A stretch of DNA of 43,838 bases from Ignavibacteria bacterium (GTDB lineage Bacteria; Bacteroidota; Ignavibacteria; Kapaibacteriales; UBA4661): contig JAAFIV010000037.1 of assembly GCA_013298775.1 (NCBI GenBank), forward strand, positions 1 to 43,838, given 5' to 3'. Positions 17,300-20,040 of this stretch are shown here, piece by piece. Both the position numbers and the translations under genes were made by a program. The notes below the pieces were generated by a model. It saw nothing but the letters and a program-made list of their open reading frames with translations, searched no databases and was not told the DNA's origin. Position 1 is the stretch's first letter. Each line of letters starts with the position of its first letter.

Positions 17300-17408
17300 G
17301 TTGTTGTTTGAAAACAATTTGCGAAATCCATTTGCAAAACCTTGAAATTTTCAGCATATTTCAAAAACACAGTCATTCGTACAAGACATTGATTTTATCG
17401 TGATTTTT

Positions 17409-17513
17409 ATGCTTTCTTCCGTATCACACATCGTTCTCCGCACGGAAATTATTCGTGAAAGTGGCGCAGCTTCGCCCTTTTACGGTGCTTTCTTTTTTTA
17501 CGGCGTTACCTGA
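17409..17513 (+). CDS. Candidate Phe/Tyr-rich leader peptide of the aromatic operon
   Basis: 34 aa. Residues 24-31 read FYGAFFFY: four Phe and two Tyr in eight positions. The stop (TGA, 17511-17513) lies two bases before the strand that forms the antiterminator. This is how the E. coli pheL leader is organised: ribosome stalling at Phe/Tyr codons would decide which hairpin forms. No strong Shine-Dalgarno precedes the ATG at 17409, which is the main weakness. The downstream genes are an antitoxin-like gene and the fused prephenate dehydratase/DAHP synthase/chorismate mutase. The leader role is inferred from composition and position. Confidence 0.6.
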   Translation: MLSSVSHIVLRTEIIRESGAASPFYGAFFFYGVT

Positions 17514-17515
17514 CG

Positions 17516-17595
17516 GCGGGACGACGAGTGTGATATTTTTTCGATGAAAATTTCTCAACGTCCCGCAATCAAAGCGATTGCGGGACTTTTTTTTT
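17516..17595 (+). promoter_or_regulatory. Attenuator: mutually exclusive antiterminator and terminator hairpins
   Basis: Terminator: GTCCCGCAATC (17560-17570), loop AAAGC, GATTGCGGGAC (17576-17586), then nine Ts (17587-17595). It is an 11-bp perfect stem. Antiterminator: GCGGGACG (17516-17523) is exactly complementary to CGTCCCGC (17559-17566), with further GAG (17526-17528) to CTC (17554-17556) pairing. The second pairing uses the left arm of the terminator, so only one can form. A weaker pairing of TTCGCC (17471-17476, inside the leader ORF) with GGCGGG (17515-17520) could act as the protector hairpin. Confidence 0.65.
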
Positions 17596-17651
17596 CTATT
17601 CTTCGGTAGAACAGCAGAGCTACTGAAGAATGTATTTCCGAAAGTAACACC

Positions 17652-17906
17652 ATGACACAGTTACTCGAACAAGCAGTTGCAACGCTGAACACGCTCCCAG
17701 AGCGTGAGCAGGACGGCATTGCTCATCTCATTTTGGAAGAACTCGCGGATAACCAGCGTTGGGACGCATCGTTTGCTTCTACGCAAGATGCACTGGCGCG
17801 TGTAGCACAAAAAGTGCGAGCGGATATTGCTAGCCGTGAAACCCGTACTACGGCAGCGTTCACGCACTCCTCAGCCGTAGGACGGGAAGAGCGTCCAGGA
17901 ACATAA
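17652..17906 (+). CDS. Small antitoxin-like protein
   Basis: 84 aa. The N-terminal ~65 residues (MTQLLEQAVATLNTLPEREQ ... ILEELADNQRWDASFASTQD) match a widespread small helical family usually annotated as an addiction-module antitoxin or hypothetical protein. The last ~20 residues are Ser/Thr/Ala-rich and do not fit the family. No toxin gene follows, so it is an orphan. It lies between the attenuator and the aromatic-enzyme gene on the same strand, so it would be expressed with it unless it has its own promoter. Confidence 0.6.
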   Translation: MTQLLEQAVATLNTLPEREQDGIAHLILEELADNQRWDASFASTQDALARVAQKVRADIASRETRTTAAFTHSSAVGREERPGT

Positions 17907-18036
17907 TCATCCGCCCAGTCTGAAATCATCTTCATCATGGCAATCATGGAAATCTGCGTCCCAAAAAATCAGGACAGAACCGATTATTGACAAATACCAC
18001 CCTTCTTTTCCTCCATTTTTCAGAGAGAGTTACATT

Positions 18037-20040
18037 ATGGCTACACATAAAATCGCCATTCAAGGCGTAGCGGGCGCGTTCCACGACATAGCGGCGCGTC
18101 GGTATTTTGGTACAGGCGGCAACACGGTTGAAATCATTGAATGCGAGACCTTTGCTGACGTGTGCGATGCAGTGATGAAGAACGAAGCCACCGAAGGCAT
18201 GATGGCGATTGAAAACACGATTGCTGGCTCCATCCTGCCAAACTACGCGCTCTTGCAGGCGTACAATTTGTCCGTGATTGGCGAAACCTACGTGCGTATT
18301 CAGCACAATTTACTTGCCTTGCCCGGACAGAAAATTCAGGATATTCACACCGTGCAAGCGCATCCGATGGCACTTCTGCAATGCCGCGACTTTTTCCTCA
18401 TGTACCCGCATATTCGCGTCGAGGAGGCGTTTGATACGGCGGGTATTGCGCGGAAAATTCGTCAGGAAAATATCAAGGGCGTGGCGGCGATTGCGGGCTA
18501 TTTGGCGGCGGAATTATACGAATTGGAAACGCTTGCAGAGGGCTTGGAATCGAACAAGCAAAATTTTACTCGTTTTCTTGCTATTTCTCGCGTGGCGAAT
18601 CATCTTTCGCGCGAATTTGATAAAACCTCGCTTGGCTTCCGCGTCTCGCATACATCGGGTTCGCTTTCGGACGCGCTGGCGAATTTCAAACGCAATCGCA
18701 TCAATCTCACCAAAATCCAGTCTATTCCTGTGATTGGCGTTCCTTACGAATACACGATTCACGTGGATATGACGTGGGAAGACGTTACTGATTTCGAGCA
18801 AGCAATCAAGGAATTTCGCCCCGACGCGCTGGAACTGCGTATTTTCGGCATTTACAAAGAAGGTGAGAAAAACATCGACCTCACAACCAAGCACCACATC
18901 ACGGTTGGCGAGGATAATGCTGAGGAAGTCATTGATGCGAAAAAAGCTGAACCAAAAGTGATGATGGAAAAAGTGCAACCTTGGCAAAAATGGATTCAAC
19001 CCGCGCCCACAACCAAGCAGGAATACTTGATGATTGCCGGTCCGTGCAGCGCGGAAACCGAAGAACAAGTGCTGGAAACAGCGCGGCGCATCAAAGCAAC
19101 GGGCAAAGCAAGTGTCTATCGTGCGGGCGTGTGGAAGCCGCGCACACGGGCGGGCGGCTTCGAGGGACATGGAATCAAGGCGTTGCCGTGGTTGCAGCGT
19201 GCGAAGGAAGAGACGGGCTTGCTGATGGGCGTGGAAGTAGCAACGGCGCAGCACGTGGAAGATTGTTTGAAGTACGGCATTGATGTTCTCTGGGTGGGTG
19301 CGCGGACGACGGGCAATCCCTTTTCGGTGCAGGAAATCGCAGACGCGGTGCGGGGTACAGGCGTTGGGATGATGGTAAAAAATCCAATTAGCCCCGACCT
19401 CGAACTCTGGATTGGTGCGCTAGAACGCCTCTATTTGGCGGGCATTAGCAATCTTGTGGCAATTCATCGCGGATTCTCAACGGGCGAAAAAACAGCGTAC
19501 CGCAATAGCCCAAATTGGAGCTTGCCGATGCAGTTCCGAAGCCGCTTGCCGCACATTCCGCTTATCAACGACCCGAGCCACATTACGGGCAAACGTGCGC
19601 TTCTCTCGGAAGTGGCGCAAAAAGCACTCGACTTGGGCATGGACGGATTTATCATTGAATCGCACATTGACCCCGATGCCGCATGGACAGACGCTGCGCA
19701 GCAACTCACGCCCGAAGATTTGCGCGATATGCTGGATAATCTCACCTGGCAACCCGCACGGCACAATCACGACGACGTACAAAAACTCGACACACTCCGC
19801 AGCTCCATAGACCGCTTAGATGCTGAGTTTGTTGATTTGCTGGCAGCGCGGATGAACCTTGTGCGCGAAATCGGCGAATACAAACGCCACAATAACATCG
19901 AAATCAATCAGCCCGCTCGCTGGCAAGATGTGATGCAAAAACGCCTCGCACAAGGCGGCAAGCTGAAATTGCCCGATAGTTTTATTCAAGATATTTTCAA
20001 TCGTATTCATACCGAATCGGTGGATACGCAGGCGAAGTAG
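18037..20040 (+). CDS. Fused prephenate dehydratase - DAHP synthase - chorismate mutase
   Basis: 667 aa. Three enzymes of aromatic biosynthesis in one chain. Residues ~1-190: prephenate dehydratase (AIQGVAGAFHDIAA; AIENTIAGSI; catalytic TRF at 178-180 in KQNFTRFLAIS), making phenylpyruvate. Residues ~195-290: ACT domain (LTKIQSIPVIG...YEYTIHVD), the phenylalanine sensor; the usual ESRP reads QSIP, as in Bacteroidota. Residues ~325-590: class I-beta (KDO8PS-like) DAHP synthase (IAGPCSAETEEQ near 333, RAGVWKPRTR, VGARTTGNPF, HRGFSTGEK, DPSHITG). Residues ~600-667: AroQ-type chorismate mutase (LDTLRSSIDRLDAEFVDLLAARM). DAHP synthase-chorismate mutase fusions are known in Bacteroidota; the added dehydratase makes it a first-step plus branch-point enzyme. 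The frame is uninterrupted. It is probably controlled by the attenuator at 17409-17595. Confidence 0.93.
   Translation: MATHKIAIQGVAGAFHDIAARRYFGTGGNTVEIIECETFADVCDAVMKNEATEGMMAIENTIAGSILPNYALLQAYNLSVIGETYVRIQHNLLALPGQKIQDIHTVQAHPMALLQCRDFFLMYPHIRVEEAFDTAGIARKIRQENIKGVAAIAGYLAAELYELETLAEGLESNKQNFTRFLAISRVANHLSREFDKTSLGFRVSHTSGSLSDALANFKRNRINLTKIQSIPVIGVPYEYTIHVDMTWEDVTDFEQAIKEFRPDALELRIFGIYKEGEKNIDLTTKHHITVGEDNAEEVIDAKKAEPKVMMEKVQPWQKWIQPAPTTKQEYLMIAGPCSAETEEQVLETARRIKATGKASVYRAGVWKPRTRAGGFEGHGIKALPWLQRAKEETGLLMGVEVATAQHVEDCLKYGIDVLWVGARTTGNPFSVQEIADAVRGTGVGMMVKNPISPDLELWIGALERLYLAGISNLVAIHRGFSTGEKTAYRNSPNWSLPMQFRSRLPHIPLINDPSHITGKRALLSEVAQKALDLGMDGFIIESHIDPDAAWTDAAQQLTPEDLRDMLDNLTWQPARHNHDDVQKLDTLRSSIDRLDAEFVDLLAARMNLVREIGEYKRHNNIEINQPARWQDVMQKRLAQGGKLKLPDSFIQDIFNRIHTESVDTQAK

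Follow-up and report, generated by a model that had tools for sequence, protein, structure and literature searches.

A Candidate Phe/Tyr Leader-Peptide Attenuator Upstream of a Fused Prephenate Dehydratase–DAHP Synthase–Chorismate Mutase Gene

The window analyzed here (the whole stretch of 43,838 nt) carries an element that is very probably a ribosome-mediated transcription attenuator of the pheL/trpL kind, serving the gene for a fused prephenate dehydratase (PDT)–DAHP synthase (DAHPS)–chorismate mutase (CM) enzyme. The ORF, the terminator, the alternative pairing, the conservation and the compensatory changes are read directly from the sequence, and the register of codons and RNA strands is supplied by a model.

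Results

The features of the window that bear on this proposal are as follows.

17331–17362, plus strand: putative Bacteroidota-type promoter, TTTG and then TATTTC, one letter off the pattern, with a 22-nt spacer
17409–17513, plus strand: leader peptide ORF of 34 codons (ATG 17409, TGA 17511–17513), peptide MLSSVSHIVLRTEIIRESGAASPFYGAFFFYGVT
17421–17439, plus strand: strand-1-like stretch, predicted from the fold to pair with about 17518–17536 and to compete with the antiterminator
17478–17501, plus strand: control codons F Y G A F F F Y, read from the sequence
17516–17523, plus strand: strand 2, the antiterminator 5' arm GCGGGACG, starting 2 nt after the leader stop codon and complementary to strand 3
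17559–17566, plus strand: strand 3, CGTCCCGC, common to antiterminator and terminator
17560–17595, plus strand: intrinsic terminator (strand 3, loop and strand 4; hairpin 17560–17586) plus nine T
17652–17906, plus strand: 84-aa ORF between attenuator and enzyme, its position not conserved in relatives
18037–20040, plus strand: fused prephenate dehydratase–DAHP synthase–chorismate mutase of 667 aa (PF00800 6–185, PF00793 329–565, PF01817 587–665)

The C-terminal part of the leader peptide reads SPFYGAFFFYGVT up to the stop codon, the last residues being FYGAFFFYGVT, and GTG at 17400 is an alternative start. Six of its last 25 codons are F/Y, a number that is modest taken alone (binomial P about 0.008), and a search of the whole genome for F/Y runs was uninformative, with 98 matches versus 143 for the reversed pattern. 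The RNA 17400–17600 folds better than its shuffles (z −6.1, 0/200). The terminator hairpin (17560–17586) has 11 bp and −20.7 kcal/mol, is followed by nine T, and ranks first of 25 terminator-like sites at 10–25 kb, where shuffles average 22.4 sites; its arm has an 8-nt complement that is equalled by 18 of 2000 shuffles. A preliminary description of this DNA had located the ORF, the antiterminator strands, the terminator and the nine T, and all of these coordinates proved exact on rechecking. Its suggestion that TTCGCC (17471–17476) inside the ORF masks 17515–17520 (GGCGGG) was dropped. This pairing would need two G-U pairs, and the fold shows the stretch 17421–17439 as the competitor.

The family of the window's own genome (f1, in which that genome is G000) has 10 genomes in the genome set searched, and the enzyme is matched in eight of them at E 1e-40 or below. 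The six with a full-length fusion and upstream DNA were compared (G000, G005, G007, G006, G003 and G009); G002, whose copy is cut by a contig end, and G008, which has an unfused PDT with no leader visible upstream, were left out. An F/Y leader, an antiterminator arm and a terminator are found upstream of the enzyme in all six. The leader peptides end in FYGAFFFYGVT (G000 and G005), FFFYGFFVFYFYGKSAGLLMP (G007), FFFYSFFVFYFYGKSAGLLIY (G006), SFMYSAACLYLFYSTSAGLLRR (G003) and GYFFYFFFYGFRVGK (G009). All are rich in the product codons, with 5–13 F/Y in the last 25; those of G006 (13/25) and G007 (11/25) are the richest, and the window leader is among the poorest, as is that of G003 (5, P 0.03). 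Six codons differ between the leaders of G000 and G005 (three synonymous changes, one stop-codon swap and two nonsynonymous changes), and within the SGAASPFYGAFFFYGVT block the differences are confined to two synonymous codons. The leaders of G007 and G006 show 6 synonymous and 18 nonsynonymous codon differences, while from the aromatic block to SAGLL one residue is changed and three codon changes are silent. The parts of the peptide other than F/Y that G007, G006 and G003 have in common are MK--INIF-KKA and SAGLL.

Terminators of −15.3 to −27.1 kcal/mol lie between the ORF and the biosynthetic gene in all six genomes. In each, counting from the first base of the cluster's last aromatic codon, an exact 8–9 nt complement of the terminator left arm starts after 10–17 nt, and the length of this complement is equalled by 18 (window), 0, 1, 0, 7 and 20 of 2000 shuffles in the six leaders. 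Base pairs were counted on the six rows of alignment A4, with G246, a genome from outside the family, excluded; alignments A2 and A3 misplace G009 or G246. For the antiterminator, 45 of 46 cells are paired (97.8%) and three pairs carry double changes. As the six sequences are related, the shuffle counts for covariation are not probabilities: the double changes are reached by 8/500 shuffles, the pair types by 2/500 and the covariation score by 0/500. This score is 0.283, against at most 0.025 for slid registers. For the terminator, 95.2% of 42 cells are paired, with three doubly changed pairs (10/500 shuffles); its covariation score is reached by 1/500 shuffles and its pair types by 133/500, which is not above chance. 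The joint change of strands 2, 3 and 4 (GCGGGA, GCGCGGGT, GGTCGGGA) is what an attenuator model would predict. It had been proposed at the outset that relatives be compared for aromatic codons and for compensatory changes in both stems, and this comparison came out in favor of the attenuator, with the codons kept in 6/6 genomes and double changes in both helices.

Upstream of the leader, five of the six family genomes contain TTG-N18-22-TAnnTT, a pattern that we take to be the promoter consensus of Bacteroidota; the spacer is 20 in four of them and 22 in G005, and the window has no exact match. With a spacer of 19–21, there are 30 occurrences of the pattern on the two strands of the window together (87,676 nt). 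The ftsH gene lies upstream of the leader in the window and in G005, and tblastn in the five other family loci found FtsH in G005 only.

In the ribosome-position model, the ribosome is treated as a block that extends, from the first base of the A-site codon, up to 11 nt downstream, and only the RNA beyond it is folded. With this block, all six leaders (last 24 codons shown) have a predicted nascent antiterminator of 0.71–1.00 while the ribosome is on the F/Y cluster and of 0 once it is on the stop codon. E. coli pheL, run alongside, shows the same behavior. Isolated F/Y codons past the cluster (F1163 of G009 and Y4871 of G006) lie beyond the switch point. The complete RNA switches too in G007, G006 and G003. 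Over the control codons, it gives the terminator at least 0.94 in G000 and G009 and at least 0.75 in G005; therefore, in these three the choice would have to be kinetic, made during transcription.

When upstream RNA is allowed to pair, the values for the nascent antiterminator over the F/Y codons lie at 0.00–0.69 in the window and 0.00–0.07 in G005, because the stretch 17421–17439 pairs with about 17518–17536, and the register no longer holds for G000 and G005. The complete RNA of G003 under this setting retains the terminator (0.85–0.95) at the first clustered codons and switches at later ones only. The early isolated F codons of G003 (1205 and 1208) give 0.05–0.31 antiterminator. A competing helix of the 17421–17439 type is, by eye, also present in G005 and was not seen in the other four leaders; a possible protector (1:2) helix, of the type that restores termination in the absence of translation, is thus present in G000 and G005 only, and the ribosome-free RNA of G006 favors the antiterminator (0.98). 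The 5' helix of G000 and G005 may be a protector, keeping the enzyme gene untranscribed until it is covered by a second ribosome. By the model, the window has one of the weaker copies: at equilibrium its terminator prevails, and its 5' helix competes with the antiterminator.

The window enzyme is 99% identical to an enzyme on contig RDXM01000099.1 of Candidatus Kapaibacterium sp., and Kapaibacterium is placed in Bacteroidota by NCBI. The distance from the end of the T-run to the enzyme is 163 nt in G007, 63 nt in G006, 92 nt in G003 and 252 nt in G009. It amounts to 442 nt in the window, with the 84-aa ORF in between, and to 1327 nt in G005, with a methylase gene in between:

L031 3852–4775 (G005): C5 cytosine methylase gene (PF00145) between attenuator and enzyme

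Because what lies in between differs (the 84-aa ORF in the window, the methylase in G005) while the enzyme always follows, the enzyme is the constant target. The preliminary description had the attenuator feeding this enzyme, and the separation of just 163, 63 and 92 nt in G007, G006 and G003 agrees with this. It had also placed the 84-aa antitoxin-like gene under the same control, a part that finds no support, as there is no room for that ORF in G007, G006 and G003, and the methylase gene occupies its place in G005. Judged from the sequences, the ORF is a local insertion and not a conserved target.

An antitoxin identity for the 84-aa ORF was considered and rejected, since it has no significant match in four databases (Pfam, NCBIfam, PHROGs and PADLOC). 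At its 3' end, 17834–17895 is a dispersed repeat of about 60 nt with an internal inverted repeat, REP- or MITE-like. A DNA search with 17300–17930 gave 46 matches in G000 (self included), 41 in G002, 41 in G004, 31 in G005 and 16 in G007, and nearly all of the matches listed fall on this repeat. In G005, the methylase gene together with an inverted repeat, seen by eye, separates the attenuator from the enzyme (L031 3675–4949). A tRNA gene lies just 3' of the fused enzyme in G003 (L005 1269–1342, reverse strand).

Within the order, PDT was found at E 1e-20 in 7 of 123 genomes, all in the family f1. At this threshold, the other 116 genomes have none, G002 being counted among them solely for its cut-off copy, and the PDT-less genomes possibly reflect phenylalanine auxotrophy or an unknown route. 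The phylum of the genome set surveyed, which we infer to be Bacteroidota, was sampled through 158 genomes, 138 of them with PDT; 138 loci lie outside f1, one genome having two. We scored an F/Y-rich ORF (at least 6 of 10 codons) with its end no more than 110 nt away from a terminator, a scan that misses the G003 leader. Such a leader and terminator precede PDT in 35/138 loci, versus 0/138 reverse strands and 0–1/138 per shuffle (ten dinucleotide shuffles). Lowering the threshold from 6 to 5 gave 36/138, with 2 reverse strands and 0–2 per shuffle. Control DNA contained no leader (0/30 downstream regions and 0/78 strands of other loci).

The leaders are present throughout three families (f19 5/5, f22 5/5 and f27 15/15, together 25/25), and 103/138 PDT loci have none, including f23 (33/33) and f29 (18/18). 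Other residue pairs, scored in 90 of the loci, gave 16 for L/I, 5 for S/T, 4 for A/G and 2 for K/R; in a different reading frame F/Y runs can give L/I, which may account for the first of these counts. The ribosome model was applied to 26 of the 35 leaders, without use of the G000 row, for which the wrong ORF and hairpin had been chosen. By the cut-offs set, 21 of them switch; 19 are reached by at most 2/30 shuffles and 7 by at least 3/30, so not each leader is proven.

Outside f1, the full-length PDT-DAHPS-CM fusion was found only in G246 and G326 (98 genomes of one order, 395 of the phylum). The G246 fusion (60% identity over 670 aa) is preceded by an F/Y leader, a CGGTCGGGA complement and a terminator; no leader is visible at the G326 fusion (65% identity), the assembly of which is 13% contaminated. 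In G216 and G235, the PDT match is preceded by an F/Y leader, and a match to a separate gene for DAHPS-CM is on the same strand at a distance of 0.5 and 0.36 kb, respectively. The simplest history suggested by these arrangements would be a fusion of operon neighbors that already had the attenuator. The loci L036 and L037, with DAHPS-CM only, were left out of the analysis, and no leader was seen at L036. A second kind of PDT-DAHP synthase fusion, apparently headed by chorismate mutase, occurs at L151–L161 and L163, in families f12, f17 and f30. The fusions in f12, f17 and G150 match no more than PDT and DAHPS, at about 30% identity, and by eye their front looks like the end of a chorismate mutase.

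Leaders of other amino acid pathways were sought in f1. A W-rich leader and a terminator stand directly before trpE in six of eight loci (G007, G009, G002, G003, G006 and G001), and SWLWWW occurs in four of the six leaders.

L164, L165 (reverse), L167, L168 (reverse), L170 (reverse) and L171 (reverse): W-rich leaders upstream of trpE, such as HSWLWWWNYSHSDLAA

From their sequences, these are likely Trp attenuators. The trpE of G000 and G005 has no Trp leader. No acceptable His leader was found within 1500 nt upstream of hisG, perhaps short of the operon start (9 f1 loci), nor an acceptable Leu leader at leuA (8 f1 loci).

Discussion

We propose that RNA polymerase would start near 17370 and that the leader would be translated by a ribosome. 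With ample charged tRNA-Phe and tRNA-Tyr, the ribosome would reach the stop codon at 17511 and cover 17516–17523, so that the terminator 17560–17586 would form and the enzyme would not be transcribed. With scarce charged tRNA, it would stall at the F/Y codons 17478–17501, and 17516–17523 would pair with 17559–17566, allowing read-through into the PDT-DAHPS-CM enzyme. In the window copy, the 17421–17439 helix would favor termination when free of a ribosome. We infer the promoter, the stalling, the read-through and the relevant amino acid of Phe and Tyr, codons for both of which are present. The reading of the region as a leader peptide, antiterminator and terminator set, made in the preliminary description, gains support from the six family genomes, the covariation and the register model.

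It is very unlikely that a plain ftsH terminator lies beside a chance F/Y-rich ORF, with the enzyme driven by its own downstream promoter. The position could suggest this, since in the window 261 nt separate the ftsH end from the start of the terminator and 450 nt separate the end of the terminator from the enzyme, another ORF intervening. However, FtsH was found upstream in G005 alone of the five other family loci, yet a leader and terminator precede the enzyme in all five, and a plain terminator does not need antiterminator covariation. Moreover, 17596–18040 contains no TTG-N18-22-TAnnTT pattern and no plus-strand sigma-70-type site, so that nothing promoter-like was detected there. A riboswitch, T-box or protein-bound attenuator acting on the same terminator and antiterminator, with the ORF incidental, would fit the unusually well folded leader RNA (z −6.1). 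We consider it quite improbable, as the aromatic codons are kept with synonymous changes (G007 versus G006) and the antiterminator is in register with the point where they end. In addition, the gathering score is not attained by any Rfam family in the window, and the seven matches up to E 10 in the leader include neither a T-box nor a riboswitch.

More generally, Rfam gave nothing above threshold except tRNA, and no T-box was recognized in the window. Phe_leader (RF01859) was found neither in the window, nor among those seven leader matches, nor in L003–L006 at E 0.5; its one match, at L142, is below threshold (30.7 bits versus 55). TnaC is a leader peptide that arrests the ribosome as a sensor of free amino acid, and a similar arrest, sensing free Phe/Tyr and not uncharged tRNA, would be consistent with the conserved peptide parts beyond F/Y in G007, G006 and G003. 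What the six leaders keep, however, is an abundance of F/Y placed at a fixed distance from strand 2, and the leader sequences found elsewhere in the phylum are different, which makes such a sensor extremely unlikely here. Ribosome-mediated attenuation in response to tRNA charging remains our preferred reading.

A broader scenario is put forward tentatively. Phe/Tyr attenuation may be old and widespread in the Phe branch of Bacteroidota, may have acted on a PDT and DAHPS-CM operon before the fusion, and may have been kept despite scarce Shine-Dalgarno use; a 5' helix newly arisen in the lineage of the window would then make read-through depend on a trailing as well as a stalled ribosome. Translation initiation in Bacteroidota hardly uses Shine-Dalgarno sites, and ribosome-mediated attenuation requires the leading ribosome to be near RNA polymerase. 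If Phe/Tyr attenuation is indeed old and widespread, leading ribosomes in Bacteroidota would follow RNA polymerase closely enough to control termination. Because of this requirement for proximity, the leaders make transcription-translation coupling directly testable in Bacteroidota. They point as well to the way in which the fused enzyme is regulated, and they are an aid in annotating short ORFs that are otherwise overlooked.

The mechanism is a textbook one, unlike its distribution; for Bacteroidota, we found just brief earlier mentions. A literature search, with subscription papers mostly beyond its reach, found no description of Phe/Tyr attenuators in this phylum. The comparisons that follow draw on parts of the articles cited. 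In Flavobacterium psychrophilum, one sentence reports clues to leader-peptide attenuation from transcriptome data (PMC9723704). Those leaders resemble the window's in belonging to the same phylum and in lying upstream of amino acid biosynthesis operons, and the main text of that article does not contain the word "phenylalanine". For B. thetaiotaomicron, short ORFs that resemble leader peptides are remarked upon (PMC7366714). The preliminary description had regarded such attenuation as known mainly from Proteobacteria and notable here; this is correct in part, given the published flavobacterial clues (PMC9723704) and the leaders in several families of the phylum.

Outside the phylum, the Acholeplasma uORFC-13-1 motif likewise has a short ORF and a terminator before aroF, but it belongs to another phylum and has another gene structure (PMC8632094). 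Attenuators of the classical kind have also been predicted outside Proteobacteria in Actinobacteria, again another phylum, where they concern trp, ilv, leu and cys genes (PMC1262725). The window differs from E. coli pheL-pheA (L053) in having Phe and Tyr codons and not Phe alone, in an enzyme that also contains DAHP synthase, in lacking an Rfam Phe_leader match, and in phylum. The two have in common an aromatic-rich leader, a strand 2 starting 2 nt past the stop codon, an overlap of antiterminator and terminator, a downstream enzyme of the same branch, and similar behavior in the model.
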